From Stenotrophomonas sp. 364 (GTDB lineage: Bacteria; Pseudomonadota; Gammaproteobacteria; Xanthomonadales; Xanthomonadaceae): a DNA stretch of 64,000 nucleotides. Position numbers and translations under genes: made by a program. Where the stretch lies: assembly GCF_009832905.1 (NCBI RefSeq), contig NZ_CP047135.1, positions 908,001 through 972,000 on the forward strand, in the 5' to 3' direction. Shown here piece after piece: positions 34,392 to 60,648 of the stretch. The notes beneath the pieces were generated by a model. It was not told the origin of the DNA, searched no databases, and worked only from the letters and a program-made list of their open reading frames with translations. The number at the start of each line of letters is the position of its first letter. Position 1 is the first letter of the stretch.

Positions 34392-37004
34392 TCAGATCAG
34401 CGCCTTCAACCGGTACAGCGCTTCCAGCGCCTGCTTTGGGGTGAGCTCGTCGGGGTCGATGGCTGCCAGCGCGTCTTGGGCAGCGGTGTTGGGGGCGTTG
34501 AACAGGCCGAACTGCTGCGGTGCATCCAGCGCTTGCGGGGTGACCGTGGCGACATGGGTTTCCCCGCCCCGCTGCTCCAGTTCGGCCAGGCGACGGCGGG
34601 CCTGGGCGACCGTCGATTTCGGCAGGCCGGCCAGTGCGGCCACCTGCAGGCCGAAGCTGCGGTTGGCCGGGCCATCCTTCACTGCATGCATGAACACCAG
34701 CGCGTCGCCGTGCTCCACCGCATCCAGGTGCACGTTGGCGATGCCGCTGGGGCCGCCTTCGTGCTGCTCGTCGGCCAGTGCGGTCAGCTCGAAGTAGTGG
34801 GTGGCAAAGAGCGTGTAGCAGCGGTTCTGGTAGGCGAGGTGGCGCGCCACCGCATCGGCCAGGGCCAGGCCGTCGTAGGTCGACGTGCCGCGACCGATCT
34901 CGTCCATCAGCACCAGCGAGTGGGCGCTGGCGTGGTGCAGGATGTAGCTGGTTTCGGCCATTTCGACCATGAAGGTCGACTGCCCGCGCGCAAGGTCGTC
35001 GCCGGCACCGATGCGGGTCAGGATGCGGTCGATCGGGCCGATCACCGCGCGGCTGGCCGGCACGAAGCTGCCGATGTGGGCCAGCAGCACGATCAGCGCG
35101 TTCTGGCGCATGTAGGTGGATTTACCGCCCATGTTCGGGCCGGTGATCACCAGCATGCGGCGGTCCGGGTGCAGGTCCAGGTCGTTGGGCTCGAACGGCT
35201 GCTCGCGCACGGCTTCCACCACCGGGTGGCGGCCACGTTCGATGCGCAGGCACGGCGCGGTCTCCAGCTCCGGGCGCGCCCAGTCCAGCGCCTGTGCGCG
35301 CTCGGCGAAACCGGCCAGCACGTCCAGCTCGCTCAACGCACCGGCGCATTCCTTGAGCGGCTCCAGCTGCCCGCCCAGCGTGTCCAGCAACTGCTCGTAC
35401 AACACCTTCTCGCGCGACAACGAACGTTCGCGCGCGGACAGCACCTTGTCCTCGAACGACTTCAGCTCTTCGGTGATGTAGCGCTCGGCATTGGTCAGGG
35501 TCTGGCGGCGGGTGTAATGCACCGGCGCCTTGTCGCTCTGTCCCTTGCTGATTTCAATGTAGTAACCATGTACGCGGTTGTAGCCGACCTTCAGCGTCGC
35601 GATGCCGCTGCTGATGCGCTCGCGCTGCTCCAGGTCGATCAGGAACTGGTCGGCATGGGTGGACAGGCGGCGCAGTTCGTCCAGCTCGGCATCGAAGCCT
35701 TCGGCGATCACGCCGCCATCGCTCAGCTTCATCGGCGGCGTCGGCGCGATCGCACTGGCCAGCAGGTGCGCGCATTCGTCATGCTCCCCCAGCGCTGCAT
35801 GGAGCGCCACCAGCCGCGGCGAATCCAGCGGCGCCAGTACCGCGCGTACCTCGGGCAGCAGGCCCAGGCCGTCGCGCAGGGTGGAAAAATCGCGCGGGCG
35901 CGCCGAACGCAGCGCCACGCGGGTGAGGATGCGTTCCAGGTCGCCGAGTGCCCGGAAGGCATCGCGGATGTCGCCCTCGGCACCCCGGTCGATCAGCGTG
36001 GCCACTGCATCGTGGCGGTGCACCAGCACATCGCGCAGCCGCAGCGGGCGATGCAGCCAACGGCGCAGCAGGCGCCCGCCCATGGGCGTCACCGTGGTGT
36101 CGAGCACGCCCAGCAGGGTGTTGCGGGTATCGCCGTCAACGCGCGTGTCCAGTTCCAGGTGGCGGCGCGTGGCCGCGTTCATCGCAATGGCTTCGCTGGC
36201 CGTTTCGGTGGCGATCGCGGTCAGGTGGGGCAGGCGCTGCTTCTGGGTCTCTTCGACATAGCCCAGCAGCGCGCCGGCCGCGGCGGTGGCGCGCGGCTTG
36301 TCGTCGATGCCGAAGCCGGTCAGGTCGTGCAGTTTGAAGAAGGCGAGCAACTGGCGGCGGCCGCTGTCGGCATCGAACAGCCACGGCGCACGGCGGCGGA
36401 TGCCGTTGCGGTGCTTGAGGAACTCGGGCCAGTTTTCTTCATCGGGCACCAGCAGCTCGGCCGGCTCCAGCCGGGCCAGCTCGGCTTCCAGCGCGTCTTC
36501 CGAATCGACCTCGTTGACCAGGAAGCGGCCACCGGCCAGGTCGGCCCAGGCCAGGCCATAGCCGTGCTTGCCGCGCGACAGCGCCATCAGCAGGGTGTCG
36601 CGGCGCTCGTCCAGCAGCGCTTCGTCGGTGACCGTGCCAGGGGTGACGATGCGCACCACCTTGCGTTCCACCAGGCCCTTGGCCAGGGCCGGGTCGCCGA
36701 TCTGCTCGCAGATCGCCACCGATTCGCCCAAGGCCACCAGCCGTGCCAGGTAGCCTTCATAGGCATGCACCGGCACACCGGCCATCGGGATCGGCGCGCC
36801 GCCGGAGCTGCCGCGCTGGGTGAGGGTGATGTCCAGCAGCCGCGCGGCCTTGCGCGCGTCGTCGTAGAACAGCTCGTAGAAATCGCCCATGCGGAAGAAC
36901 AGCAGCAGGTCCGGGTACTCGGACTTTGCGGCGAAGAACTGCTTCATGAGCGGGGTATGCTCTGCCGCGCTTCCGGATTTCTGCTGCTTTTCAATTTTTG
37001 ACAT
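34392..37004 (-). CDS. mutS: DNA mismatch repair protein MutS
   Basis: 870 residues. The mismatch-reading [11 protein letters not shown] is near residue 40, and the ABC ATPase has GPNMGGKST, the signature region [15 protein letters not shown] and Walker [14 protein letters not shown]. It recognises mispairs and recruits MutL. From about residue 15 ([11 protein letters not shown]) the sequence is standard. The first 12 codons are AT-rich (14 GC of 36 bases), and no Shine-Dalgarno motif precedes the ATG at 37004 (bases before it read AGCATTGATTGAT). A TTG at 37040 is in frame but also lacks a site. A tyrosine recombinase gene starts 146 bp upstream, so the 5' end has probably been replaced by an integrated element. 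Confidence 0.95.
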
Positions 37005-37149
37005 ATCAATCAATGCTTTAAGTAATCTGTGTGGCAGCAACTGTGAACGAGTAGGGACATCTATTCCCGTCTTTGGACAGTCACCTGTAGCGCCAAAGTA
37101 GCACCCTAGGATAACGTCCAGCGAAACAGGGTCGACCCGGAGCTACACG
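36940..37149. other. Probable attachment junction (attL) at the 5' end of mutS
   Basis: Between codon about 20 of mutS and the recombinase start, the sequence turns from GC-rich core to AT-rich DNA (for example 36990-37035). The recombinase is the first gene on the other side and points away. This is the usual layout of an element integrated at the 5' end of a gene. The matching right-end repeat was not found in the window, so the exact core is unknown. Confidence 0.4.
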
Positions 37150-38637
37150 ATGGAAAACAAGGCCTCTCGACGTCTGGCGCTCACGGCGACCATGGTCAAA
37201 GAGCAGCTGTCCTTCACGCGCGTGCCGGAGGTCAACGCCGACGGCAAGATCGTCAAGTTTGCCCCGAATACGGATCAGAAGCGCTATGTGGTGTTCGACA
37301 GCCACCGAGATGCGCCGGTTGGCTTTGGGGTGGCGGTGAACAGAACCGGGATGAGCTACATCTTGCAGCGGCGCATCGGACCCCGTGTGCTCAAAGCGAC
37401 GTTGGGGAACTGCCGGGACATCACCCTTGCCAAGGCCCGTGAAGACGCCAAGGTTGCACTGGCCTCCATGCAAGCCAGCGGAAAGACGCCCGCCCAGGCC
37501 AAGCAAATCGACAAGGACGAGATCCGGGTAAGCCTGATGACGGTGGAGGCGTGCTTCGCGCTCTATCGCCGTCACCTGATCGAGCGGGCAAGGCCCGCCA
37601 AGGACAGCAGTCTTCGGGGGCTCGAATACGCGGAGAAGCGGCTCGGTCGGGCTGAGGTGGATCTGTTGGATTTGCCTATCGGTGACTTGGTCAACGAACA
37701 GCGGATCTTGGACGCGTTTGACGAAATCGCCAAGGGCAAGCGCCATCTGGCCGAGGGGACGAAGCGTGCAAATGCCACAACCACGGCTTTTGATAAGCCA
37801 ACCGTTACCACCGCAGAACTGACCTTCCGCTGGGCCAGCCGCGCGGTGGGCTATTGCATGGATCGGGAAAAGCGAATTGCCGCCAACGCGGGCCGGTCGC
37901 CTTCGTTGCAGATCAATCCGTTTACGGTGCTTCACCAAGAAGGGCGGTACCGAACGCGGGAGCAGTTGGAGGCGGACTATGAAGCAAGCCAAGCTCGCAA
38001 CCCGATGCAGCTTCGCGATGGTTCACTCGGGCGCTTCTTGGCGGCGCTTTGGGAGCGGCGAAAGGTTGATAACTACCGCACGGCGTGCGACTACCTGCTT
38101 TTGACGCTTCTCTGGGGCACCAGGCGGGGTGAGGCAGCCCCGTTGAAATGGCGCCATCGGATCGATAAGCGAGATCTTTCGATCAGCTCTTGGGTGGATC
38201 TGGAAGGCGGGTGGGTGTCGTTTGCCAATACCAAGAACGGCTCCACCCACACGCTCCCGCTTGCGCCAGGCGCCAAACGCCTTTTGACCCTGCGCGAGGA
38301 GGCGTCTCAGAAGAGCCAGTCTCCCTGGGTCTTCCCCGCTCGGAGCAGCAGGGCCGCGCGAGGCCACTACTTGGACAGTAAGGCGATCTTGCAGGGTTTG
38401 AAGAAGGCTGGCGAGATCGAGGCGCTTCGGACCCACGACCTGCGTCGGACCTTTGCTACAGTGGCCGAAGAAGTGGCTTCGTATGCGGTGGTGAAGCGGC
38501 TCCTCAATCATCGTAACAGCCGGGACGTTACCGGCCGCTATACCAAGGTGGACGATGCGCGATTGCTGGAAGAGATGACGCGAGTTGAGCGAGTGATGCT
38601 GGGAGCAGATCCTCTGCTCATTTCCGTTTTGACTTAA
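37150..38637 (+). CDS. int: Tyrosine recombinase (integrase) of a genomic island
   Basis: 495 residues. The C-terminal catalytic domain has the first Arg in TLLWGTRRGEA, HDLRR (H-x-x-R), LLNHRN for the second His, and the nucleophile Tyr in VTGRYTK. The N-terminal 330 residues hold the arm- and core-binding regions. It catalyses site-specific integration and excision. GC content is lower than that of the neighbouring core genes. An excisionase-like wHTH gene lies 900 bp downstream. The ATG at 37150 follows GGAG with little spacing, so the start could differ slightly. Confidence 0.93.
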   Translation: MENKASRRLALTATMVKEQLSFTRVPEVNADGKIVKFAPNTDQKRYVVFDSHRDAPVGFGVAVNRTGMSYILQRRIGPRVLKATLGNCRDITLAKAREDAKVALASMQASGKTPAQAKQIDKDEIRVSLMTVEACFALYRRHLIERARPAKDSSLRGLEYAEKRLGRAEVDLLDLPIGDLVNEQRILDAFDEIAKGKRHLAEGTKRANATTTAFDKPTVTTAELTFRWASRAVGYCMDREKRIAANAGRSPSLQINPFTVLHQEGRYRTREQLEADYEASQARNPMQLRDGSLGRFLAALWERRKVDNYRTACDYLLLTLLWGTRRGEAAPLKWRHRIDKRDLSISSWVDLEGGWVSFANTKNGSTHTLPLAPGAKRLLTLREEASQKSQSPWVFPARSSRAARGHYLDSKAILQGLKKAGEIEALRTHDLRRTFATVAEEVASYAVVKRLLNHRNSRDVTGRYTKVDDARLLEEMTRVERVMLGADPLLISVLT

Positions 38638-38669
38638 GCGCTTTAACCTCAAATATCAAGGAATAGATG

Positions 38670-39251
38670 ATGAGTAGCTTTTTCTTCATTAGTTTGGCTA
38701 AGGCAGGGCTGAATGATCCGATCTGTGGGACAGGCCTTGAAGATGACGCGCAGCGAGGGGGAAGTCAGTTCGCCGTCTTGGATTATGAGCCCCGAAATTC
38801 CGGCAACAATGCGCCCGATTTCAATCTCTTGATGCATCCTGATGGCTTCACCGGACAAAAATCATTCGATGCCTTCGCTAAGTATGCTCACAGTGACTGC
38901 GGGTGCAAGATCGCAGCAGCCGGAACTGATCCCGCAACCATAGAGTCAGTATGGAGTGATCTTAGTGACTCTTTTTCCGTAAACACGTATGAGGGGATGG
39001 AAGAGTTTGCCGGTTCTCCCGATAACCGGTTTCAAGTGATGTTTATGACCATTTTTCTCCCGAGCGGAGAGAGGGCGCCGTGGCAACCCGGTGCGAGATA
39101 TGTGTTATTCGCGAGAGATCAGGGTCTCGTCTTAAAGGCATTTCTCAACCCGGTAGCCGCTTATCATGCAGCGATGGTGCAGGAAAAGAAAGAGCATCAG
39201 GCCGATGATGGCATCAAGGCCCGTGTTCGGAGGCGGCGGAAGAGTATTTGA
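38670..39251 (+). CDS. Unknown island protein
   Basis: 193 residues, no recognised domain. It is probably soluble, with a mixed alpha/beta pattern (FMTIFLPSGE, YVLFARDQGLVLKAFLNP) and a basic tail (RVRRRRKS). The second of two adjacent ATGs (38670) is chosen because AAGGA lies seven bases before it. It starts 32 bp after the integrase on the same strand, so the two may be cotranscribed. Confidence 0.65.
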   Translation: MSSFFFISLAKAGLNDPICGTGLEDDAQRGGSQFAVLDYEPRNSGNNAPDFNLLMHPDGFTGQKSFDAFAKYAHSDCGCKIAAAGTDPATIESVWSDLSDSFSVNTYEGMEEFAGSPDNRFQVMFMTIFLPSGERAPWQPGARYVLFARDQGLVLKAFLNPVAAYHAAMVQEKKEHQADDGIKARVRRRRKSI

Positions 39252-39259
39252 GATGGGGT

Positions 39260-39469
39260 CTATTTCGCGGAATTTGCGTCAGGGAAGGCCCGAGAAATAT
39301 CCTGATCTTTCCAGTGAACTAAGTAGGCCGGTTCCCAATGCCGTTGATGCGACCGCCAATGTTCAATACAGAGTTCAGTGGCAAGGTCTGCCTCGCGGCG
39401 GGCGTCTCTGGCCGGCAAGCGAGTGAGTGCGGCGATGTATGCGCTGTTCCAAAATTCTTCGATGTTCAT
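39260..39469 (-). CDS. Small island/phage-type protein
   Basis: 69 residues. EEFWNSAYIAALTRLP followed by EADLATELCIEHWRSH resembles small proteins of unknown function common beside integrases in Xanthomonadaceae prophages and islands. The ribosome site is poor. It lies between two plus-strand genes and is divergent from the wHTH gene. Confidence 0.55.
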   Translation of the reverse strand: MNIEEFWNSAYIAALTRLPARDARREADLATELCIEHWRSHQRHWEPAYLVHWKDQDISRAFPDANSAK

Positions 39470-39555
39470 AAATAGTTGAGAAGTTGAAGTTCTCCGTGTT
39501 TAAGGCAAAGCGCGCACCTGTCAAGTATGAATGCTTGGCAGGAGTGGAGGCTCTT

Positions 39556-40155
39556 ATGAACGAAAGCAGTGACATCCCATTCCGATTGACCCAGGTTGCG
39601 CAAAAGCGCCTGACCGCTGATCAGCTCGCGGAAGTGCGGCGCCGTTTGGAAGAGCGTCCCGAAAACGCCGACTTCAATGCTGTAGAAGCGGCGATCTATG
39701 TGGGTAGAAGCACCAAGACCTTGAAGCGCGCGATTGATGCGGGAGTCGGACCGGCTCGGGCGAAGAACCCTGACGCCAGTGGCCTTTACGCAACCAATCG
39801 TCATACGCGCTACCGAAAGGGAGACCTCGATGCGTGGCGTTCGAGCTTGATTGGCTTTGCGGTCGAGTTCAAGCGATTCGACGACCTCACCTCTGATGCA
39901 CCTTGGATCGTGACAAGCGAGGGAAAAATCTGGGGACACCTTTGGGACGCTGAAAGCGTCGATGACGTCCTGCGCGCGCTGAGCGAGGAAGCGGTAGTCC
40001 TTGTCCCTCTCCATGAAGCACTGAGAGAGGCATGGTCGAACATGCCTGCGCGCCGGGCCTACGAGGCGGTCTTTGATGACCTTGTGGAGCATGAGTGCGC
40101 TGCCATCAAAGCAGCAGGCCAGCGTGACGAACTTCGTTTAGATATCGGTGCTTAG
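39556..40155 (+). CDS. Winged-helix (excisionase/AlpA-like) DNA-binding protein
   Basis: 199 residues. Residues about 40-100 (FNAVEAAIYVGRSTKTLKRA, then RHTRYRKGDLDAW) form a MerR/excisionase-type winged helix. The C-terminal 100 residues are unrecognised. The ATG at 39556 is preferred to a TTG at 39484 because GGAGG stands five bases before it. Its place close to the integrase suggests a role in excision or island control (inference). Confidence 0.7.
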   Translation: MNESSDIPFRLTQVAQKRLTADQLAEVRRRLEERPENADFNAVEAAIYVGRSTKTLKRAIDAGVGPARAKNPDASGLYATNRHTRYRKGDLDAWRSSLIGFAVEFKRFDDLTSDAPWIVTSEGKIWGHLWDAESVDDVLRALSEEAVVLVPLHEALREAWSNMPARRAYEAVFDDLVEHECAAIKAAGQRDELRLDIGA

Positions 40156-40162
40156 ATCAATA

Positions 40163-40618
40163 TCAGTCAGTCGCAGCAGTCTTTTCAGAACGCTGGGCTG
40201 GGAAAGCTGTCGCCAGCGCAATGCCGTTCATCGCGTACCCCCACTTTCCAGGCGACTTGTGCGGCTTGACTGCAAGTGCCTCACGATCAAACGCGTCGCC
40301 CGCAGCACCAATGAGGTGAAGCGGCAAGTTATGCGTTTTCGCGCCCGTGATGAGTGACTCGATTTCGGTGGTGGTATCTAGATGGATGCCGTAGATCATC
40401 CCGAAGGAAACGACAGCGGAGCGGTCAGAAATACTGTCCCGAATGGCGCCGTGCTCCACGTTGTCGCGGCTGATGAGAAGCCGCATCAGTCGATTTCGAA
40501 GCGGGTGAATCGTTCCCGATGTGTAGCAAAGATAGAGTGAGATGCAGGGTAGCGTCAGCAATGTCACGGCCGCTTCAAGCAGCGTGAACATCTCGTTCCA
40601 AGTCGCAGTCGTTTCCAT
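40163..40618 (-). CDS. Membrane protein, short relative of the 47 kb gene (DUF6216-like)
   Basis: 151 residues with one clear N-terminal membrane helix (AAVTLLTLPCISLYLCY), then a conserved soluble part (IHPLRNRLMRLLISRDNV, MIYGIHLDT, LPLHLIGAAGDAFD). This part matches the gene at 47013-47917 almost position by position. That relative continues with a second helix and about 150 more residues, whereas this one stops soon after its second hydrophobic stretch, so it may be a truncated copy. The family resembles proteins labelled DUF6216; the number is from memory. It converges on the wHTH gene with 7 bp between the stop codons. Confidence 0.6.
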   Translation of the reverse strand: METTATWNEMFTLLEAAVTLLTLPCISLYLCYTSGTIHPLRNRLMRLLISRDNVEHGAIRDSISDRSAVVSFGMIYGIHLDTTTEIESLITGAKTHNLPLHLIGAAGDAFDREALAVKPHKSPGKWGYAMNGIALATAFPAQRSEKTAATD

Positions 40619-40916
40619 CGTGCGTCCATGCAGTAGCGGTAGCTCGTTAGCGACTGCTGGCGCGAAATATTGAGGTGCAAAACGACAGTTCTCGATGCGT
40701 GCGCTGGGACGGGAGGCGCTTAACCGCGAGTGGCATTGCCTACCCCGAATTTTGCCAACTCGCTAAGCCCCCTTAACACGTGTCGACGAGGCCAAGTGAG
40801 GTGTGAGTCAGAGCTTTTGGAGGCGCCAGATAAATCTGCCAGCCATTGCTTAGACCGTCACAAGTGCTAGTAGTTCGCTCTCAGACAGTGCGGAGGCCCA
40901 ACTGGCGCAAGTGCGC

Positions 40917-41654
40917 TCACTTGCCAGTAAGTGGCGCTTTCCCTGATCGGATTTCATACCCAGTGCGTTCGAGCGTGCGAACCAAGTCAAGATCTTGGTC
41001 ATAGATGGCAACCAGCGCCTCAGAAGAGGCGATGATCTTGCCGCTGACCTCCTTCTTTCCGTCTCGCCAGAGTTCAGCAGAAGGAAGCTTGGCGCCGTCC
41101 TCGTTTTTGATCGCTTCGCGCTCTTTCAAGGCTTGATGATGCCCGGCCCGTTCACCAAGCCACCCAGGGATGAGGGCGAGAAGTGTGCCGATCAAAGTCA
41201 TCGTTAGCGCCACATAGAGCACGGCGGCGGATCCCGCCATCGCTTTGACTGGCTCGCGGACCCAGAATGGTCGTGCTGCGAACCAATCGTGAAAGGCTGT
41301 GCGTTGAACGGTGGGCAGGTTTGCGACAAAGATGGCTATCGTCATGCCACAGAACGCGTAGAAGACAAGAAGCCAAGGGATATCAGAGATCAGTTGGCTG
41401 CCTTGGAGCACGATGGCGTAGTAGCCCCTAACGACCTTCCAATCCGCTGTTTGCGGGAACAAGCCCTCTTGCACGCCCCAGTCGTTGAGGTAAGTGCTGT
41501 ATGCCACATGGCCGCAGCCATGAAGAACAAATCCAAGCAGCGTGGCTAATGCCACCAGGCCGCCGGCAATGGTGGCCAGTGTCATCAATGCACTGGGGCT
41601 TGGCTTCTCAGAGGGGGCGGTTGGCTTGGCGGCAGGTGTCGCGGGAGCGTTCAT
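40917..41654 (-). CDS. Multi-pass membrane protein, unknown
   Basis: 245 residues. A Pro/Ala-rich cytoplasmic start is followed by three to four membrane helices (LMTLATIAGGLVALATLLGFV, DIPWLLVFYAFCGMTIAIFV, AVLYVALTMTLIGTLLALI), then a soluble C-terminal domain of about 70 residues (SAELWRDGKKEVSGKII, ALVAIYDQDLDLVRTL). The ATG at 41654 has ACGG six bases upstream; an ATG six bases earlier is possible. No family is recognised. About 300 bp without a gene separate it from the DUF6216-like gene. Confidence 0.65.
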   Translation of the reverse strand: MNAPATPAAKPTAPSEKPSPSALMTLATIAGGLVALATLLGFVLHGCGHVAYSTYLNDWGVQEGLFPQTADWKVVRGYYAIVLQGSQLISDIPWLLVFYAFCGMTIAIFVANLPTVQRTAFHDWFAARPFWVREPVKAMAGSAAVLYVALTMTLIGTLLALIPGWLGERAGHHQALKEREAIKNEDGAKLPSAELWRDGKKEVSGKIIASSEALVAIYDQDLDLVRTLERTGYEIRSGKAPLTGK

Positions 41655-41758
41655 TGGCATCCGTCCGTGGAATGGGAGGGCAACAGTAGGGAGGTTCACG
41701 CGTGTGGCCTCCCTTTACACATGGAGCACTGATCAGCACCCCATACTAATGCGAGTAA

Positions 41759-42421
41759 CTACGGGTTGATGTTGCGCTCAACATAGCCAATGTTGAGTGC
41801 CTCTCCAATGACCTCGATTGTGAGGTCTTCCAGCGAGGCAATGTCGATGACACGAGCGTTTTGCTCGGGATGTCGCGGACCGACATTCAAGACGACGGCT
41901 CCTGCGGCAAGGCCAGCCTCTATCCCAGCGCGAGCGTCTTCAATGACCACACAGTCCATGGCGTCGAGTCCGAGCCGCTTTGCGCCGAGTTGATAGCAAA
42001 AAGGGTTGGGCTTGCCAGGATTGGCATCCTCAGCGAAGACCGCCGTCGTCGGCAGTTGGAGCCCTGCTGCGTTCATTCGATTTTGCGCAAGCTTTTAGCC
42101 GGCCGAGGTCACCAGAGCGACTTGATGCGATGGAAGCGAGCGGAGCAGCGCGGCAGCACCGGGGGTGGCGACGATCCCTTCGACGTGTTCTTCCTCATAG
42201 CGCTCCAATATTTTGGCTTCTTGCCACGCCGCCTCTGTGTCGCCCAAGTAGTGCCTGACAAGATCGATGGTTTGCATGCCGTGAGCCCTTGCTCTCACTT
42301 CCTCATATTCCAAACCGTGCTTGGCGGAGAACAATCCAAGAACGTGCTCTACAAGGACCAGGGAGTCGATGAGGGTTCCGTCCATGTCTAGGAGGAGGGC
42401 TTTGCAGTGCAGGGTTGGCAT
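41759..42421 (-). pseudogene. HAD-family phosphatase gene interrupted by an in-frame stop
   Basis: The frame begins at ATG 42421 with LLLDMDGTLIDS (the nucleophile motif DxDGT) and runs to VALVTSAG, where a TAA at 42095-42097 interrupts it. The same frame then continues KLAQNRMNAAGLQL to GKPNPFCYQLGAKRLG and VVIEDARAGIEAGLAAG, the remaining HAD motifs, ending at 41759. Intact, it would be about 220 residues, like beta-phosphoglucomutase or YfbT-type sugar phosphatases. One base change explains the stop. Without readthrough the protein is inactive. Confidence 0.85.
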
Positions 42422-42742
42422 AAGGCGATCCAGGTGGGGTAGCACAGAATAGCGGGGCTCCGTGCCGCTGTCCTTGCACGGAAGGCCCGTTCTCAGACAA
42501 GGGCATCCGTAAGCGGATCGGATGCCTTCAACCCGGAAAGGCGAGGAAGCGCTCGTTTGGGTGGTTCTTCTTCCAGTCGCTGTGCGCAACGGTCCCTTCC
42601 CAAGCGAGAAACGCCTTTGGCGGACGGCCCCGACCTGACGGCGCTGGAGGACCAGGCCGCCTGACAGTGACCCCAAATCGACCCAACCTACAGGCAACCC
42701 GTTGTACGCTCAGCGATCTCATCGGTTGCGTCGGAAGGGTAC

Positions 42743-43366
42743 ATGTTGGAGCTTTATGGGAAGTCCACCTCGATCAACGTGCGCAAGGTCCTGTGGCTGT
42801 GCGATGAGCTGGGGCTCGGGTACCGCCACGTGGTCGGCAACGCTTCTTCGGACGCCTACTTCGATGCCCGCCTAGCCCGAATCAATCCCAATCGGCAGGT
42901 GCCCGTACTGCGTGACGGTGACTTCGTGCTGTGGGAATCCAACAGCATCTGCCGCTACCTAGCCGCGCACGCGCAGCGCCACGACCTATTGCCGACCACG
43001 CCGCGGGCAAGGGCTCTTGTGGAGCAATGGATGGACTGGCAGGCCACCGATCTGAACTCGGCGTGGCGGGGCGCATTCATGTCCCGCGTGCGAAATCACC
43101 CTGACTACCCGGACGGCCCGGCGGCCGAGGCAAGCTTGGCTCGCTGGAATACATTGATGGGCCTGCTGGACCAGCAGCTCACGCGGACCGGTGCCCACGT
43201 CGTGGGTGCGTCCTTCACACTTGCCGACATCGTGCTGGGACTGTCGACCCAACGCTGGCGGATGACCCCAGGTAATAAACCCGACCTGCCGGCCGTGGAG
43301 GCGTGGTTTGCGCGCTTGGCTGGTCGCGCCGGCTTTTCCCAGCACGTCGACAACGGCGTGCCGTGA
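42743..43366 (+). CDS. Glutathione S-transferase
   Basis: 207 residues. The thioredoxin-like N-terminal half has ELYGKSTSINVRKVLW (active Ser region), NRQVPVLRDGDFVLWESNSICRYLA (cis-Pro and glutathione-binding ES). The C-terminal helical half ends with ASFTLADIVLGL, the N-capping box. It resembles theta/beta-type bacterial enzymes that conjugate glutathione to electrophiles. AAGGG lies before the ATG. It stands alone on the plus strand. Confidence 0.88.
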   Translation: MLELYGKSTSINVRKVLWLCDELGLGYRHVVGNASSDAYFDARLARINPNRQVPVLRDGDFVLWESNSICRYLAAHAQRHDLLPTTPRARALVEQWMDWQATDLNSAWRGAFMSRVRNHPDYPDGPAAEASLARWNTLMGLLDQQLTRTGAHVVGASFTLADIVLGLSTQRWRMTPGNKPDLPAVEAWFARLAGRAGFSQHVDNGVP

Positions 43367-43877
43367 CCGCACCGGAAGCCGTTCGAGGAAGATCAGGCGG
43401 CCTGATCCGGGCGGAGCGGCACCACGTTGCCGGTGCGCAGCCGGCCCCAGGTGGTCCGCCCATCCTGCATCACGCGGTCAGTCATATGAGGGTGTGTTGG
43501 CTAATACGCTTACGAGGTATGTGCGGCCGCATGCCCCGCACCTGCTTTTCCTACCATCAGGATTCGCAGCGAGCGGGTGTTCCAGCCAGGCGCTACGCGG
43601 CGAACCCCTGGTGGTGCTGAGCAACAACGACGGGCGCGCGGTCGCCCGAGCTGGAACTCTGACTGTGCGTTGTCTCATGAAGGATAGGCAGGCTGATCAG
43701 CGGCCGACCGGCGACGTATCAGCCTCTACGACGAGGCCTCAGAATTGAGCCATGGGAAAGACTGTCGGGGAAAAACTCCGCTGGGGACGTGGTAAGGCGG
43801 CCGGGCTCTGGGAGCGGCTGAACGCTCTACTCGTCGTTGAGTCTTGACGAAGTCAATTATGGCGATACGTTGGAAGG
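43367..43877. other. Gene-free stretch with relics
   Basis: No intact gene. A minus-strand relic at 43395-43485 (MTDRVMQDGRTTWGRL) is open for only 30 codons, and a umuC fragment lies near 43560. The 5' half is GC-rich like core DNA. Confidence 0.5.
43560..43655 (+). pseudogene. umuC: umuC (DNA polymerase V) fragment
   Basis: SSQALRGEPLVVLSNNDGRAVARAG matches the N-terminal region of UmuC (usual form ALRGEPLVVLSNNDGCVVARA). Only about 30 residues remain and the sequence after it is not UmuC. An upstream MCGRM at 43519 recalls the start of an SRAP/YedK peptidase, another SOS gene, but is too short to name. Confidence 0.6.
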
Positions 43878-44960
43878 ATGAGCAATAAGAACAGAGAAAA
43901 GTTCTATCGAGGACTTAAGAAAGCGATCTATGAGGGCGATTTGGGCACGATCGTATCCCTCTGCGAGAAGCAAAAGGATGTAGACGAGGCGGCTCGAAAT
44001 GCCATCGTCTTGGCGATCAGGCTGGATCGTGACAATGTGATCGAACAGCTCCTACCGCTGCTGACGGGCTCCTGGCAGAGCGAGCCACTGAACGAAGCCG
44101 CTAAGTCTGGCAGGACAGAGTGCGTGGCGAGACTAATCCCGTTCTGCAACGTCGAAAGTGGAGATGCGCTTATCCACGCAGCCAGGCATGGGCACGTTGA
44201 CGCGGTCAAGCTGCTTATGCGCTCTTGCAGCCCTTTGGAGGGAGACTCCCAAGCGCTATATGAGGCCTCGCTTCATGGCCACGCCGATGTCGTTTTCCAG
44301 TTGGTTCTATTCTCGAATGCCAAGGTCAGGGGCAGTCGAGCACTCATCGCTGCTTGTAGGGCAGGTCATCTAGAAGTGGTGAAGCACCTTCTACCGTTTT
44401 CTTCCAAGATCCAATGCGCGCAGCGGGGATTTGAAGCTGCGGCGGAGCACAACCATGAGACCATTATCAAGTTCCTGATCGGGGCCGGACTTCCCGATCC
44501 AGAGGATACGTACAGCGTAGGATTGAACATCGCAGCTGCAAGGGGGCATGTCTCGTTGGTCCGAACTCTGCTTTGGGCCATTGTCCGAACTGGCTTTGCG
44601 CCGCGCGACTTCGGCCAAGAGGCCTTATTCGTTGCCGCCAAGAACGGTCATGCCGAGGTGGTGAAGTCGGTAATGGAATTTGCGCATAAAACTGCTTATC
44701 CCGAAGCGGCCCTATACGCCGCATTGCTCGGCGCACACGATGCGGCGGCCGATCTATTGGTTCGCCGGGTCAATCTGGATCACGTGCGTGAACTGATTTC
44801 AGACGAGGACGTTGAGGTGAGGCTCGATCGATCAATCGCGAGAGTTGCTGCCGCAGCGCAGAACAAAGAACTGCGATTCAATGAGAAGAGTCGGCAAAGA
44901 GAGCGTGAGGCGGCGGCGGGAGGTCTGCCTAAAAAGTCCCATCCTGCGCGCAGACTCTGA
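43878..44960 (+). CDS. Ankyrin-repeat protein
   Basis: 360 residues, predicted soluble. About eight ankyrin-like repeats of some 32 residues run from residue 40 to 320 (for example LNEAAKSGRTECVARLI, LIHAARHGHVDAVKLLM, LYEASLHGHADVVFQLV, LIAACRAGHLEVVKHLL, LFVAAKNGHAEVVKSVM). The C-terminus is a charged helix with many Arg and Glu. No catalytic domain or signal peptide is seen. It heads a run of four plus-strand genes. Protein binding is likely; the partner is unknown. Confidence 0.85.
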   Translation: MSNKNREKFYRGLKKAIYEGDLGTIVSLCEKQKDVDEAARNAIVLAIRLDRDNVIEQLLPLLTGSWQSEPLNEAAKSGRTECVARLIPFCNVESGDALIHAARHGHVDAVKLLMRSCSPLEGDSQALYEASLHGHADVVFQLVLFSNAKVRGSRALIAACRAGHLEVVKHLLPFSSKIQCAQRGFEAAAEHNHETIIKFLIGAGLPDPEDTYSVGLNIAAARGHVSLVRTLLWAIVRTGFAPRDFGQEALFVAAKNGHAEVVKSVMEFAHKTAYPEAALYAALLGAHDAAADLLVRRVNLDHVRELISDEDVEVRLDRSIARVAAAAQNKELRFNEKSRQREREAAAGGLPKKSHPARRL

Positions 44961-45026
44961 TGTGAAATTTAAGGCATAATTTACGCAGATTTGGAGTGGC
45001 GTTGGGGCAAGGGAGGGCTCGAACTA

Positions 45027-45695
45027 ATGACACTGATTAGCAATCAAGACAGCTTGGAAGAGGGGTTCATTCGCTCCGCCTTAGAGATCATTGCCAACCC
45101 TGGCAAAAGATCGTCCGTTGTAGCGCGATCAGACCATCAAACGGTCCGCCAGCTCTTGGATCAGGCGCCAAGGACCACACTCTTCACGCAGTCAATGGCC
45201 GAGTTCTATTTGGCCATCCCACGGCGACAATTCGAGGCTCTAAAACGCGCACATTCCAACCCGTTCGCCAAGAGTGTTGGCCGGCCCAAGATGATCAGCA
45301 AGGACGACCTCTTAACCTGGTTCGGGCTGGTCAACAAGTCTGTGCATGCCATGCCTGAAAAATTTGAAGGGCGTCTTGGCAGAACGGCAAACGGGACGCC
45401 CTTCATCGTGATGCGCGACAAGCATAAGAAGATCAATCGCATCATCTCGCATGCCGGCATCACAACCCTTGATCTAGACGCGATAGAAGAGGCCTTCGCC
45501 CGTGGCGCCAAGATCGCCGCGCTCGGTGTTGATCAAGCATTGATGCTCCCCTGGGCTAATCTTCCCGAGAAGTGTCTATGGCGACAGGCCTACCGAATCC
45601 ATATCGACCGCACTCATTCAGAAACAGTGGCGCTCTTGGATAGGCAGGAGCTCGATGAAGCAACGGTCATTTCGCCTGAATCGACGGTCAGCTAG
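45027..45695 (+). CDS. Unknown protein with a possible DNA-binding segment
   Basis: 222 residues. The segment AIPRRQFEALKRAHSNPFAKSVGRPKMISKDDLLTWF looks like a small helical DNA- or protein-binding unit, with a loop of the sort found in HTH proteins. The later part has strands (GTPFIVMRDKHKKINRI). No family is recognised. The ATG at 45027 follows GGGAGG by ten bases. It is 66 bp after the ankyrin gene, probably in the same transcript. Confidence 0.65.
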   Translation: MTLISNQDSLEEGFIRSALEIIANPGKRSSVVARSDHQTVRQLLDQAPRTTLFTQSMAEFYLAIPRRQFEALKRAHSNPFAKSVGRPKMISKDDLLTWFGLVNKSVHAMPEKFEGRLGRTANGTPFIVMRDKHKKINRIISHAGITTLDLDAIEEAFARGAKIAALGVDQALMLPWANLPEKCLWRQAYRIHIDRTHSETVALLDRQELDEATVISPESTVS

Positions 45696-45783
45696 TCGGT
45701 ACGGTTCCGTACTCGATGGTCCAAGCAACTCACTGTAACTTTTGCTCCGAAGCCGGGCAGGGTGCTCGGCAAGGAGAAGCTCC

Positions 45784-46017
45784 ATGAAGTACGAAGTTGA
45801 GTTCAATGGCTTTGCGCAGTGCGCGTATTATTTGGAACTCGAAGCTGAAAGTCCGGAAGACGCCTTGAGGATGGCCAAGGAGGCGGTCCTGTCGGATGCG
45901 TCATTTGCCATCGAGGAATGGGTGAATAAGCCCACGATTGAGAGCTTGAGCGAAGATGGCATGCCCATCGCAAGCAACTACGAGTTGGACATCGCGAACG
46001 TGGAAGACTACGAATGA
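45784..46017 (+). CDS. Small DpnD/PcfM-like protein
   Basis: 77 residues, acidic. MKYEVEFNGFAQCAYYLELEAESPEDALRMAKEA has the strand-strand-helix pattern of the DpnD/PcfM N-terminal domain, small proteins found on mobile DNA. The role is unknown. AAGGAG stands seven bases before the ATG, a strong ribosome site. Confidence 0.65.
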   Translation: MKYEVEFNGFAQCAYYLELEAESPEDALRMAKEAVLSDASFAIEEWVNKPTIESLSEDGMPIASNYELDIANVEDYE

Positions 46018-46175
46018 CAGAGGGACTCTTGCCCGCATCGGTCCCAAGGGTTGAATTGAAAGCCCTTGCCGTGCATGTCCTCGCGTTGCGGCTCTCTTTT
46101 TCCGGCAGGTCGCAGCTTTCAGGAGGGCGCTGGAGCACACGTTGACAGTTAAGGACGTTAAGCTAACGTGGATGA

Positions 46176-46838
46176 ATGGATCAAGCTTCGAATTCTGACA
46201 GATCGGCGACTCCGTCTGATCTTGAGCAAGGCCAAGATGAGGAACAACGCCGCTGTCTGTTGATTGCAGTGTTGAGGGGCGACTGTTGTGCTGTGAGACT
46301 GGCGCTGGCATCTCTGTCGGATGGGAAGAGCGCGCAACACGCGCTGAGAGTGGCCGCAGGTTTGGGTCATGCCAATATTGCTTCGATGATCATTCAAAGT
46401 GCGCTTCCCGATGCTGCCGATGCCTTGGATGCGGCGTTGGCGGCAGCGATCAAAGACAGTCAGGCCGCGACCGTCCGCCAATTGCTTTACGAGGCATCAC
46501 GGTTCGCTGAGCCCCCCGCGTTGATGAAATCGCTTTGTGCCGCTGGAAGTGTCGGCGCTGTGGATCTAATCGATGAGATCATGTTCACGTATCGCCCGTC
46601 CAACAAGTCGCTTATCACCGCTTTTCGTTTCGCGCTGGTCGAGAAGAGATGGCCGGCTGCTGTGCATATCTTCGATGCGGCCGATGCCAGGCTATTTGAT
46701 CGGTGGATAACGGAGACCGATCGGAGTTGCATGAATGCATACCGCGCAATTCGGCAGTCCGATACTGTCCGGAAAGAGTTGGATCATTGCACCAAGCCTC
46801 TGGCAGTAAAGCATAAGCTGCCTCAGCCGAGATTTTGA
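46176..46838 (+). CDS. Ankyrin-like helical-repeat protein
   Basis: 220 residues, soluble. The repeats are weaker than in the 43.9 kb protein but of the same kind (CLLIAVLRGDCCAVRLAL, ALRVAAGLGHANIASMII, ALAAAIKDSQAATVRQLL, SLCAAGSVGAVDLI). It may be a divergent paralogue of that protein. It ends the plus-strand run of four genes. No enzymatic motif is seen. Confidence 0.65.
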   Translation: MDQASNSDRSATPSDLEQGQDEEQRRCLLIAVLRGDCCAVRLALASLSDGKSAQHALRVAAGLGHANIASMIIQSALPDAADALDAALAAAIKDSQAATVRQLLYEASRFAEPPALMKSLCAAGSVGAVDLIDEIMFTYRPSNKSLITAFRFALVEKRWPAAVHIFDAADARLFDRWITETDRSCMNAYRAIRQSDTVRKELDHCTKPLAVKHKLPQPRF

Positions 46839-47012
46839 GCGCCCCCCAAAGATGCGTGAGCAGCGGCCGCCAGTGCTCTTGCTGCGAGGCTCAGAGACAG
46901 CAGCCTGACTCCTCGATCGCTGACAGCGCTTTCCAGGCGCGCCGAAGTCGGGCCACATGCTCCCATCTCGGTAGCGTGACGAGTACCCAACAATCGCTTG
47001 GGCTGCCTTGAG

Positions 47013-47917
47013 TCAGTTTCCGCGATGAGCGTCGCTGGCGGTAGGCTTAGGGATGTGCGTTCTGATGCCAACTCGCCAATCGAGCCAATCTCCGCACTTC
47101 AGCAGCATGACGAGCTTATAGCGGCTTTTCCCCGAAGGGGCGTCGGCCTGTATCGAGGGCCGCGGCAGGGAACGAGCAAGAGCGCGGATTGCAAAAGCGC
47201 GCCTGAGCGCGTCGAAAAGCATGAGACAGGTCCACGCCAGAAACGCTGAGGCAAACAAGAAAGTCAGGCGTTGTTCGCGAACCGATCTTATCAGTTCCAC
47301 GGACGTCCTCGGATCTGCCCAGATGTCGCAGAGGATATCTGGGTCGGCTGGACGAAATCCATCCGCGCCTTGGTCTTCGTACTTTGTTCCTGAGGTATCG
47401 GTGCACGACGCGACGGAGAAGATCGGGCGCTCTCCTGAAAGGGTAGGCTTGGCAATCTGTGCTTGATCCTTCCCGAGCCAAAGCCAAGTTCCCGTGGCAT
47501 TGAGTGAGACAAGTAGTCTCTGCTCGGTCGCACCGTACGCGAGGATCAACATAAGCCAGAAGCACGCAAAGAGCATCAGGCCGCAAAGGGCGACACCGAT
47601 TCCGCGTGGGCGTTTCCTATCGATGACCGTAAAGTTATCGAGATCGAACGCCCCCCGGCCAAGCCCACGAGGGCAAGCGGCACGTTGCGCGCTTCTGCCT
47701 TCCCGATGATCTTCTTCGCGTCAGCCAGCGTTTGGGCATGAATTCCGTAAGTGAGCCGAAAAACCGTAAGCGCGGAATAATCCGAGAGATTCTTCTTAAC
47801 CAAGGGATCCTGGATGTCGTCGCGGCTAATGAACAACCTCAGCAAACGATTGTTCAATGGGTGCAAGGAACCGGCTCGCCAGCAAATATGAAGTGCTGCC
47901 CCGACTAGCCCGATCAC
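47013..47917 (-). pseudogene. Membrane protein gene (DUF6216-like) with a one-base frameshift
   Basis: The 5' part (GTG at 47917) reads LHPLNNRLLRLFISRDDI and VPLALVGLAGG, matching the gene at 40163. It then leaves frame at a run of six C (47651-47656; G on the coding strand). Adding one G gives AFDLDNFTVIDRKRPRG, which again matches the relative, and leads straight into a membrane helix (LMLFACFWLMLILAYG) and a 160-residue C-terminal part ending at 47013 with another helix. The full protein would have about 300 residues with helices at its start, middle and near residue 240. The run may be a genuine mutation, a phase switch or a sequencing error. Confidence 0.75.
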
Positions 47918-48845
47918 CGAGAGCCACTCTGGGGCTCCAGAGTAAATGCTATCCTAATTCATCCTAACGTCCTGTTTGTTCTGCGATTGGAAGGTTTATC
48001 TCCTCTCGCTATCGGCATAGGACAGGCGAAACTTGAGATGGTCTTCGGGGAGGCGACTGGGTACGTGGACCGCGTTGGTGTGGAGAAGGCGATCGTTTTG
48101 GCTAACGTTATGTGCGTGAGGAGAGGCTTGCCATGGACCTACGTCCGCCTTTGGCCTTTTCACCGTGGCTCCGCCAGATCAGTGCTTTCTCAGCGCGCTG
48201 TTCCACTGGTTTCAGTTAGGCGCCAACCGCGCTGACACCGATTAAAACGAGGACGGAGGAAAATCTGGGTGGACAGTTAAGTCAGTTGGGCGATAGTCTC
48301 CGTGTTTTGATCAGTGGCGATCTGATGAGCATCCTCAATGTGTTGCTTCGCGCCGACCAACTGCTCGTCGCGGTCGATACGTGGGCTGAGGACGCGCCGA
48401 CTCAGAAGCCATCGGTGGGCGCCAAGCTCTTGCTCATCCCTCAGCACAACCTTGCCAACTTGCCCTTGGCATCATCGTTAGGCCTCCGCAGCCGCAGGGG
48501 AAAGCCCAGCCTGCCAGGGGAAACCTTGTTTTCATCGTTCTTCCCTTAGGGATGAAGCCCCCCACCGCACGCGGCCTATAGCTGGACCAGTCGAGGTGCG
48601 CCGCAGATGACCGCACAGAGTCAAGCCGACCTGGCAGTGAATAATAATCGCCATTGCTCGGGCGAGCTGGGGTTGCTTCCGCTTTCAAGTTGGGCGCTCT
48701 TTCGTACCGCGGCCAGCCGGAGCATAAAATAATCGGTGAGATCCGCCTGCCTTTCGCCTTCTAGCAGGCAACCCAGAACCCGCCCGCCATCTATCCCCAT
48801 TCATTATTCCCGCCACCGAAAGGCTTGACGAGGGGATGGACATTG
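47918..48845. other. Gene-poor stretch
   Basis: No convincing gene. A plus-strand frame from about 47987 to 48235 contains AIVLANVMCVRRGLPWTYVRLWPF, like the end of a small island protein family, then degenerates; it may be a gene fragment. Nothing recognisable lies between 48240 and 48840. Confidence 0.4.
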
Positions 48846-48861
48846 TGTGATATGCATCACA
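48846..48861. promoter_or_regulatory. Perfect CRP/Clp-type palindrome
   Basis: TGTGATATGCATCACA is a perfect 16-bp palindrome and matches the TGTGA-N6-TCACA consensus of CRP and of Clp, its xanthomonad homologue. It ends 60 bp before the start of the small YjzC-like gene. Confidence 0.75.
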
Positions 48862-48921
48862 TTATTGGTCCGCCGGGAGCCTCCTGGCGGGTTGTCCCAC
48901 ATTCGATAGAAGGAGCTTGCG

Positions 48922-49089
48922 ATGGCTGGTGGTAACTATTGGTCGGGCCAGGAGTGCCAGAAGACAGCAACCTATGGGCAATACAACGATGCGAGTGGAA
49001 CGTATGCGGGCAATGCGAATGACCGGCGCGTCGAGAAGGGGGAGCGGTTCCCCCCAAGTTTGAACAACCATCACTTTAGGGAGAAGTGA
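48922..49089 (+). CDS. 55-residue YjzC-like protein
   Basis: 55 residues: MAGGNYWSGQECQKTATYG, then a Gly/Asn/Asp-rich middle, and the end KGERFPPSLNNHHFREK. The C-terminal half has the same order of residues as YjzC of Bacillus (TGGxxxxxxxxxxLxxGEKFPxxxxNxxHWRxK). Function unknown. AAGGAG seven bases before the ATG, a CRP-type site upstream and a clean terminator downstream show it is a real, separately regulated gene. Confidence 0.75.
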   Translation: MAGGNYWSGQECQKTATYGQYNDASGTYAGNANDRRVEKGERFPPSLNNHHFREK

Positions 49090-49098
49090 TGAAACGGA

Positions 49099-49122
49099 GG
49101 GAGGGCTTAGGCCCTCCCTTCT
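49099..49122 (+). terminator. Terminator after the YjzC-like gene
   Basis: GGGAGGGC and GCCCTCCC form a perfect 8-bp stem around TTAG, followed by TTCT. It begins ten bases after the stop codon. Confidence 0.75.
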
Positions 49123-49185
49123 CAGCGGCACTCGTCAGGCAGCGTTGGCCTCAGTGCGCCGTCCTCGAGAATCAAAAAATCCTCT

Positions 49186-49791
49186 TCAGATCTCCAGCAG
49201 TTTTTTGCAGTTTTCCACCAGCCGTTCGCCGTACTCAGGCGTCAGGGGAGTCACCTTGAGCAGCAAGTTGAAATAGAGGCTTCCGAAGATTGCATCGACC
49301 ACAAGCTCTGGATCGACGTGTGCAGGCACCAACCCCTGATTCTGGGCGGCAACGATCTCGTTGACCGTCCCCGCTCGCCGCGGCTTGATGTATCGCTCAC
49401 TGAACTCGCGGAGCACCTCGGGATCGCTCTGCGCCTCGGCAACAATCTCCGCGATTACTTTCCCGAAAAAGCCGTTGAAGGCCGAGATTAGGTTGCCCAC
49501 CTTCTGGCGGATGGCGTCTTCGACGGACGTGGCCATGGGGGCATCCAGCGCCGGAATGATTCGCTCCTCAAACATTGCGATGACCAACGCGGCCTTCGTT
49601 TTCCACCAGCGATAAAGCGTCGGTTTGCCGACGCCTGCACGTTTGGCCACGCGTTCCATCGTGAGTTCGCGCAATGACATCTCCTGCAGCAGGTCATACA
49701 CCGCCGTCAGGATCGCCTCATGGGAGTCTGCGATAGCGGCGGGAGGTCGGCCGAGGCGAGTTCCCGCGCTTGTCTTCGTATTCATGCACAT
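49186..49791 (-). CDS. TetR-family repressor
   Basis: 201 residues. The helix-turn-helix is ELTMERVAKRAGVGKPTLYRWW (residues about 40-62), and the ligand domain follows. A TetR_C-like region with VSVDAIFGSLYFNLLL-type sequence near the end fits the AcrR-like group. Starts at 49791 and 49785 are both possible. It is divergent from two dehydrogenase genes with a 109-bp spacer containing their promoter, so it probably represses them. Confidence 0.88.
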   Translation of the reverse strand: MCMNTKTSAGTRLGRPPAAIADSHEAILTAVYDLLQEMSLRELTMERVAKRAGVGKPTLYRWWKTKAALVIAMFEERIIPALDAPMATSVEDAIRQKVGNLISAFNGFFGKVIAEIVAEAQSDPEVLREFSERYIKPRRAGTVNEIVAAQNQGLVPAHVDPELVVDAIFGSLYFNLLLKVTPLTPEYGERLVENCKKLLEI

Positions 49792-49844
49792 GCCACCCTG
49801 TTTAAGCGATCCACGTTAGCATGACGGTACGTTTCAAAAAAGTG

Positions 49845-49872
49845 TTGACGTCCAACCTTCGTCGCCTACGAT
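49845..49872 (+). promoter_or_regulatory. Promoter of the dehydrogenase pair
   Basis: TTGACG and TACGAT lie 16 bases apart in the TetR/dehydrogenase spacer, about 30 bases before the ribosome site GGAGGGAG. The partly symmetric TGACGGTACGTTTCA at 49822-49836 could be the repressor site. Confidence 0.5.
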
Positions 49873-49900
49873 CAGTTTCAATATATGGAGGGAGAAGAAG

Positions 49901-50641
49901 ATGACGACCATCAGATCCAAGGTAGCGCTGGTCACCGGCGGCTCGCGCGGCATCGGTGCGGAAATTTCCAGGCGTTTGGCAGGCGAGGGCTTCGCAGTGG
50001 CCATCAACTACGCCAGCAACCCCGACGCCGCTCAAGCGGTAGTGAGGAAAGTCCAAGCGTCAGGAGGCCAAGCGTTCGCGATCCATGCAGACGTCAGTGA
50101 CGCACATGCTGTGGAGACCATGTTTGCCGAGGTTGCTAAGTCGCACGGGGAGGTCTCGGTCTTGGTCAACAACGCAGGAATCATGGAGCTCGCTCCGATT
50201 GCCCAGATGGATGGCGAGACGTTTGATCGGATGCTGGCCATCAACTTCAAGGGCAGTTTCAACACCTTGCAGCAAGCGGCAAAACGGATGGAAAGCGGTG
50301 GGCGGATCATCAACCTGTCTACCAGCGTCACCAAGCTCAAGCTTCCCAACTATGGCCCGTATGCGGCCACCAAGGCCGCCATTGAGACCCTGACGGCGAT
50401 TCTTGCCCGTGAGTTGCGTGGCCGTGGCATCACGGTCAACGCCGTCGCGCCTGGTCCGACGGCGACCGAGCTGTTCTTCAAGGGCAAGTCGGACGAGCTG
50501 ATCGGCAACATCCAGAAGATGGCCCCCTTGGAGCGCTTGGGTGAACCCCGGGATATCGCGGCTGTTGTGTCCTTCCTAGCCGGTCCAGACGGGGCGTGGG
50601 TCAATGGACAGACGATCTTTGCTAACGGCGGCGCAATCTGA
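49901..50641 (+). CDS. Short-chain dehydrogenase/reductase 1
   Basis: 246 residues. The classical SDR fold has TGGSRGIG (nucleotide binding), NNAG, the catalytic Ser in INLSTS and Tyr-x3-Lys in YAATK. An Arg/Ser-rich pocket after strand 2 (NYASNP) suggests NADP(H). The substrate is unknown. It lies directly after the TetR-controlled promoter, with a second SDR gene seven bases downstream. Confidence 0.9.
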   Translation: MTTIRSKVALVTGGSRGIGAEISRRLAGEGFAVAINYASNPDAAQAVVRKVQASGGQAFAIHADVSDAHAVETMFAEVAKSHGEVSVLVNNAGIMELAPIAQMDGETFDRMLAINFKGSFNTLQQAAKRMESGGRIINLSTSVTKLKLPNYGPYAATKAAIETLTAILARELRGRGITVNAVAPGPTATELFFKGKSDELIGNIQKMAPLERLGEPRDIAAVVSFLAGPDGAWVNGQTIFANGGAI

Positions 50642-50648
50642 GCGGGGT

Positions 50649-51392
50649 ATGGGCATCCTGAAACCACAGAAGACTGCGCTCGTGACTGGTTCCTCCCGCG
50701 GTATCGGGGCCGCCATCGCTGCACGGTTGGCGCAGGATGGTTTTCTGGTGGTGGTCAACTACGCCAAGGGCGAAGATGCCGCCCAAGAGGTCGTCGAGCG
50801 AATCGAGGCCGCCGGCGGCCAGGCCGTGTCGGTCCGGGCGGATTTGACCAAAGATGACGAGCTCGTGCATTTGTTCGAAAGGACCGCCGGCCTGGGTGGA
50901 CCGCTGCAAGTTGTCGTCCACAACGCCGGCATTCAGTTGCTGGGATCGCATGCAGAGATGAGCGGTGAAGACTTAGACCGCCTGATCGCCGCCAACCTGA
51001 GAGCAACGTTCTCTGCGGTTAGTCAAGCTGCGAGAAGGGTCGTGGAGGGCGGACGAATCATTGCGCTCTCCTCGGGAACGTCGGTGGTACTTCCGCCCCG
51101 GTATGGCGTTTACGCCGCCACAAAGGCGGCGACGGAAATCCTCATCGGGGTGTTGGGCAAGGAGCTGCGGGGGCGAAACATCACCGCCAACGCCGTCTCC
51201 CCCGGGCCCGTTGCCACAGACCTGTATTTGAAGGGAAAGAGCGCGTCGGATCTGGAGGCCGCGGCTTCTCGCTCGCCGCTAGTGCGCATTGGGAAGCCGG
51301 ACGACATCGCTGGCGTCGTGGCCTTTTTGGCCAGTCCCGATGGGCAGTGGATCAATGGGCAAACCCTGCTCGCCAACGGCGGCTTTGCCTAA
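50649..51392 (+). CDS. Short-chain dehydrogenase/reductase 2
   Basis: 247 residues, clearly related to its upstream neighbour: TGSSRGIG, HNAG (His replaces the first Asn of NNAG), ALSSGTS and YAATK. The ends ASPDGQWINGQTLLANGG and GPDGAWVNGQTIFANGG show that the two arose by tandem duplication. It starts seven bases after the first SDR stop, so the two are cotranscribed and may work on the same or linked substrates. Confidence 0.9.
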   Translation: MGILKPQKTALVTGSSRGIGAAIAARLAQDGFLVVVNYAKGEDAAQEVVERIEAAGGQAVSVRADLTKDDELVHLFERTAGLGGPLQVVVHNAGIQLLGSHAEMSGEDLDRLIAANLRATFSAVSQAARRVVEGGRIIALSSGTSVVLPPRYGVYAATKAATEILIGVLGKELRGRNITANAVSPGPVATDLYLKGKSASDLEAAASRSPLVRIGKPDDIAGVVAFLASPDGQWINGQTLLANGGFA

Positions 51393-51428
51393 TCAAGGCG
51401 GCATCCCGCGCAACTGCTCAGCGCTTGG

Positions 51429-56024: not shown

Positions 56025-56051
56025 CCTAAACTAATCTTGTAAATCCTACGA

Positions 56052-60639: not shown

Positions 60640-60648
60640 GGACGCCGC

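Follow-up and report, generated by a model that had tools for sequence, protein, structure and literature searches.

MutS sets both the mutation rate and the interspecies barrier to recombination. At another mismatch-repair gene, mutL of Streptococcus, SpyCI cuts mutL off from its operon promoter and silences it, and in strain Manfredo a promoter in a decayed integrase rescued the gene (PMC3430984, PMC4129442). For IMEVchUSA3 at dusA, a new in-frame N-terminus and, by reporter fusion, a new promoter are reported, and such a promoter is cited for the integrative and conjugative element SXT at prfC (PMC8409611). Here we analysed a stretch of 64,000 nucleotides of Stenotrophomonas sp. 364 (hereafter the window, G000:C1:908001-972000 of a genome that is one contig of 4.84 Mb), which holds mutS and one end of a 133.9-kb integrative, probably mobilizable element. 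We put a probability of roughly 0.9 on the reading that this element integrated site-specifically at the mutS codons for EHTPLMKQ and replaced the mutS start.

The locus shares traits with each of these systems. Like SpyCI at mutL, it has mobile DNA inserted where a mismatch-repair gene begins (PMC3430984, PMC4129442); unlike SpyCI, it targets mutS rather than mutL, and the element generally brings an in-frame start with it. As in the dusA elements (IMEVchUSA3) and SXT at prfC, a tyrosine recombinase integrates in the 5′ end of a conserved gene and the element joins a new N-terminus in frame (PMC8409611). It differs from them in having mutS as its target, in an integrase family whose strong matches lie only beside mutS, and in stacking and lasting scars; the target gene, mutS and not prfC or dusA, sets it apart from the SXT and dusA families proper. 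It does share what characterizes 5′-end-replacing integrative elements, a described kind rather than one family: integration into 5′ coding sequence flanked by a direct repeat, an adjoining tyrosine recombinase and a new in-frame N-terminus. The features on which the comparison turns are as follows.

34392..37004, minus strand: mutS, 871 codons, complete, an open reading frame (ORF) with five MutS Pfam domains; its body is native from 36962 down.
36963..37004, minus strand: element-supplied mutS leader, shared with mutS of G049 and the displaced copy in G008, absent from native starts.
37005..37149, minus strand: element DNA upstream of mutS, with blocks conserved with the Luteimonas, Lysobacter, G049 and G008 elements.
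36940..36962, minus strand: attachment core on the mutS side, GAGCATACCCCGCTCATGAAGCA, with a second copy at G000:C1:1078793-1078815.
36940-36947, minus strand: crossover site, ATGAAGCA, identical in 16/16 mutS/far pairs, with differences on both sides.
37150..38637, plus strand: tyrosine recombinase of the mutS-site family, 495 amino acids, over the Pfam cut-offs for Phage_integrase and Arm-DNA-bind_3 and supported by the family alignment.
36940..64000, no strand: the part of the island within the window, which continues to G000:C1:1078815 (window-equivalent 170815), the site of the displaced native start.

An earlier note on this DNA, made from the letters alone, proposed that an integrated element had replaced the 5′ end and promoter of mutS. 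For the 5′ end and the DNA upstream of it the comparisons below bear this out, with a junction at 36962 and the displaced native end 133.9 kb away. The observations behind the proposal were largely accurate: 14 of 36 bases in the first 12 mutS codons are G or C, against 68% in the two neighbouring kilobases of mutS, and the 20 bases upstream of the mutS ATG pair with the anti-Shine-Dalgarno sequence at +0.6 kcal/mol, that is, with no Shine-Dalgarno motif. The recombinase does start next to mutS, at a measured 145 bp from the mutS ATG and not the 146 bp given. This ATG (37004-37002, minus strand) is the likelier of two possible starts, because it is kept in 5/5 sister elements aligned and the upstream frame is broken in Lysobacter.

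For comparison we used 91 genomes of the genus (handles such as G049 denote individual genomes), 90 of which have mutS; G036 has no mutS match at the limit used, and the matches in G081 and G054 are partial. A readable leader came from 87 genomes (G018 and G075 lack an anchor, G036 lacks the match, and G054 was left out). Aligned with element-free relatives, as the earlier note had advised, the window matches their upstream regions only to 36962 or a few bases beyond, and 36962 is the first base of the Glu codon where the homology begins. The 14 codons preceding the native body recur, among the 87 mutS genes read, only in G049, a contig of Stenotrophomonas nematodicola; one of the displaced copies in G008 has them too, altered at a single place. 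The observation that the earlier note named as telling against replacement, the same leader and upstream DNA in a genome free of the recombinase, was absent from the 87: mutS of G049, the only other one with this leader, has a broken copy of that integrase next to it. Upstream DNA, an ATG and a 14-codon leader, all from the element, are fused in frame to the mutS body.

The missing native start is still present in this genome. The mutS upstream DNA of a close relative, G074, was sought in G000 and located from C1:1078981 onward; next to it, at C1:1078845-1078793 and on the same strand as mutS, is a displaced native mutS start, which reads on that strand as the native start GATGGACCCCGCGTGACCGAAAAGCAGCCC, the core GAACACACCCCCCTGATGAAGCA and then TTAA with a stop. 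The start codon there is GTG, the native upstream region and first codons remain on this far side, and the flanking DNA is that found upstream of mutS in G074, G027 and G056. The displaced copy also retains TTCGCC-17-TACAAT at the same distance from the core as in mutS of G074 and G027. Because the displaced native start and core are found there, the island spans C1:944940-1078815, bounded by two copies of a 23-bp core; the second copy, at C1:1078793-1078815, is the direct repeat anticipated for the far end. That homology stops at 36962 and the missing start lies 133.9 kb away in the same genome makes replacement more than chance. The displaced start (C1:1078845-1078789) now encodes a mini-ORF, about 14 codons long and closed by a stop that follows the core; in several of the other displaced copies, too, the frame terminates after a few codons.

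Three other candidates for the far end were rejected. A 13-bp exact partial core, CATACCCCGCTCA, at window positions 50639-50651 (minus strand) has no mutS start and is possibly a chance match; a region at window-equivalent 138228-143619, homologous to mutS-adjacent genes of G005, lies inside the island; and a site near window-equivalent 154461, half resembling a leader, was discarded on reading it.

The arrangement recurs across the genus. The core pattern GARCAYACVCCNYTSATGAAGCA, allowing two mismatches or fewer, matched in 89/91 genomes, with more than one match in 16, and its reversed control gave 0 matches in all 91. A mutS start accompanies the additional matches in 15 of those 16; in the remaining genome, G045, the additional match has two mismatches and failed the core pattern used for checking. 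G006, where the displaced copy is the sole match and the mutS core differs, brings the genomes with displaced copies to 16, the same 16 that have a long integrase divergent from mutS. Neither feature occurs in 74 of the 90 genomes with mutS (Fisher p = 4.7e-18, a descriptive value as the genomes are related); these 74 include G049, with its broken integrase, and G089, with an integrase-like gene beside mutS, each having a single core. Of 17 displaced copies, two of them in G008 and that of G009 on another contig, 12 are native-type, three element-type (G015, G041 and the inner copy of G008) and two unclassified (G012 and G047). Their upstream DNA matches the mutS upstream regions of genomes that lack an intact divergent integrase (for example G015 with G032, 96.0% over 1352; G090 with G082, 96.8% over 1341; G041 with G042, 89.8% over 1339). 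Native MutS N-termini also vary between lineages, which might suggest that no element is present and that the N-terminus is merely variable or the assembly rearranged; given the duplicated core, the same-strand displaced native start and the syntenic far flank seen here, and their repetition in 16 genus genomes and five others, we regard that explanation as highly improbable.

Comparing core pairs also places the crossover. The base directly before ATGAAGCA differs between the mutS core and the far core in 13/16 genus genomes; because ATGAAGCA is shared and differences lie on both sides in all 16 pairs, the crossover lies in its 8 bases or the few that follow. Site-specific integration would proceed from a free circle on which leader, core and stop form a mini-ORF. 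On entering the mutS motif, the circle would join the element leader to mutS in frame, the far side would close the native start with a stop, and mutS would be transcribed from a signal in the element, the DNA at 37005..37149 being expected to hold both the new mutS promoter and the integrase start region. Excision would give back the native mutS start; a promoter switch on excision is possible.

We then asked how far the integrase family extends. A profile search of 398 genomes of the order at E<=1e-60, which scored the three best candidates per genome and so may have missed some, returned 15 matches in six genera and two families, some of them rows of the profile itself. All 15 adjoin mutS, where HTP is preceded by a leader in frame. 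Eight belong to genomes of the genus that were counted above, and seven lie outside it, including those of Luteimonas endophytica and Lysobacter enzymogenes. Five of these seven have a displaced core that carries a start (that of G364 on another contig), and in G147, also outside the genus, the displaced start is of element type. The restriction to mutS applies to these strong matches, because integrase fragments lie elsewhere in G007, G046 and G043: pieces 75 to 90% identical to the window integrase were seen away from mutS in these genomes (L009, L010 and L024). Identity among the fifteen integrases compared ranges from 27 to 99.8%, and in a ten-row alignment R325, R326, K362, H429, H454 and Y464 are invariant and R432 is replaced by Lys in G055, positions that we take to have catalytic roles. 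Samples of the class (369 genomes) and phylum (398) gave matches at E<=1e-30 only in the same genus, and these samples are thin, having missed known non-genus genomes. No relative was found in viral contigs, and plasmid (8 records) and phage (14 records) collections held only distant relatives, under 60% identity.

Elements also appear on top of one another. In G008, mutS carries the leader MTDKKEQSKKSTVSS and adjoins an integrase of one type; an MSKIEKQQ leader with a broken relative of the window integrase follows 82 kb upstream, and 31 kb further a native start. The inner displaced copy is the start of a sister of the window element. From this double displacement and the element-type displaced start in G147, islands land on older ones or their remains, and the three element-type displaced copies of the genus come from earlier elements, recording stacking or replacement. 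By comparison of these loci, then, an integrase family of the order is repeatedly found beside mutS with such leaders, and its islands stack on or replace each other.

Classed by eye, the 87 leaders comprise 35 element-type starts (an approximate total), 50 of native types and two others. Sixteen of the 35 have an intact divergent integrase, which was partly the basis of the classing, and 19 do not; in one of the latter, G056, the DNA beside mutS retains pieces similar to an integrase region. Compared across genomes, element-type starts stay where the integrase is broken or gone. The ratio of replacement to silent change (pN/pS) was 0.31 in 13 LQTT leaders, 0.08 in three MSKIEK and 0.34 in two TDN, samples that are small, pooled and not independent; three MTDKK leaders are identical, with no changes. 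No mutS match has a stop downstream of its start, the two stops seen in G006 and G022 both preceding the ATG. This lack of stops, together with replacement changes being rarer per site than silent ones, favours a maintained MutS, and an in-frame start with no downstream stops fits replacement better than disruption.

Leaders of distant elements (L085, L083, L109 and L090) have in common ACTGAT followed by A-rich DNA, coding T-D-x-K, which could be an integrase site or a translation signal. Attachment function would explain this conservation equally well, and the leader may be attachment-site DNA only, kept for the integrase, with the altered N-terminus and start as neutral passengers. We think this possible but doubtful, as every leader read stays in frame with mutS and silent changes outnumber replacement ones, albeit in small numbers.

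Initiation signals vary between leader types. Anti-Shine-Dalgarno pairing was -2.5 to -3.0 kcal/mol in the five native-type starts tested, -4.2 to -4.5 in three LQTT-type element starts and weak, -0.2 to +0.4, in three other element starts. A looser promoter scan, for TAnAAT within 200 bases upstream of the core of hand-picked starts and with no shuffle control, found it in 10/13 native, 1/12 element and 4/7 displaced starts; the 200 bases before the core of the present window mutS have none. The weak pairing before the window ATG and the missing sigma-70 consensus could leave room for lower mutS expression. A rival reading, raised by the earlier note, is a mutator switch of the SpyCI kind, an island type marked by a silenced target during integration and growth-dependent excision. 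MutS would then fall or vanish on integration and return in those cells where the element excises, and the mutation rate would follow the element. The target class and 5′ position are those of SpyCI at mutL (PMC3430984), the integrase looks intact, and neither a Shine-Dalgarno motif nor a sigma-70 site was found at the new mutS start. However, the element brings an in-frame start conserved in sister elements, no mutS match has a stop after its start, silent exceeds replacement change in the pooled, non-independent LQTT leaders (0.31 in 13), and 19 genomes that lack an intact integrase still have element-type starts. We therefore consider such a switch unlikely.

Beyond its ends the island is rich in cargo. 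GC content is about 0.53-0.62 in its window part versus 0.68 to the left of it. We picked 142 ORFs, of which 41 were scanned with Pfam. Further features are listed here.

39484..40155, plus strand: HTH_17-like protein, with homologues next to the integrases of the G008, Luteimonas and Lysobacter elements.
L003:1373-2335 and L003:3321-5918 (G000:C1 about 992373-996918): Ku and LigD genes, inside the island and outside the window.
L131:9589-10980 (G000:C1 about 1057589-1058980): a further tyrosine recombinase within the island, sharing 49% identity with one of the G041 element.
L146:8810-10713 (G000:C1 about 1076710-1078613): Cap15 effector and a weakly matching cyclase of the type found in cyclic-oligonucleotide-based antiphage signalling systems (CBASS), just inside the far end of the island.

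The 39484..40155 protein, whose HTH_17 match is below the cut-off here and over it in the Luteimonas homologue, is a candidate recombination directionality factor. Near the far end are two MobA/MobL relaxase genes over the Pfam cut-off, with the MobQ NCBIfam match below its own. Phage_integrase together with two MobA_MobL genes gives the integrase-plus-relaxase combination of an integrative mobilizable element, and as in such elements with a MobA/MobL-type relaxase, the integrase lies at one end and the relaxase genes near the other; mobility is predicted on this basis. Unlike typical members, this one is 134 kb long, carries much cargo and is possibly composite. Type IV secretion genes, the mark of a self-transmissible integrative and conjugative element, were not found among the 41 scanned ORFs. 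Cap15 and the adjoining weak cyclase match likely represent CBASS defence. The Ku and LigD genes, for non-homologous end joining, travel in an island that also rewires a mismatch-repair gene. Other cargo between the ends includes several cyclic di-GMP proteins, a TonB receptor and metabolic genes. Genes that directly adjoin mutS in G005 were found deep in the island, at G000:C1 1046228-1051619 (window-equivalent 138228-143619).

Several results weigh against site-specific replacement of the mutS start as we describe it. G089 has an integrase-like gene beside mutS (33% identity, a 410-codon frame) yet one core; the displaced copies of G012 and G047 fall outside the start classes, with a single element-free upstream match each; and outside the genus, G422 has the mutS copy only, with no displaced one, and G448 has no core under the strict pattern. 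The island may also be composite, as it contains the second recombinase and the genes found beside mutS in G005. Lastly, a scan of 36850-37250 found no sigma-70 consensus promoter, and with the Shine-Dalgarno motif also missing, the new mutS start could be weak.

A literature search made chiefly on mutS found no island at the 5′ end of mutS in these bacteria, which does not establish absence from print; PMC7168690 and PMC3569456 deal with other subjects. Within 5′-end-replacing integrative elements, what distinguishes this case is mutS as the target of one integrase family, the stacking and the lasting scars. With the core motif and displaced start, the ends of these islands and their stacks can be located precisely in genomes of the order, and the loci offer natural pairs, with and without an element, for asking whether elements tune mutation rate. 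If our reading is true, an integrase family that rewrites the mutS start and leaves its own behind would put control of a core repair gene partly under mobile DNA, and mobile DNA may influence mutS control.

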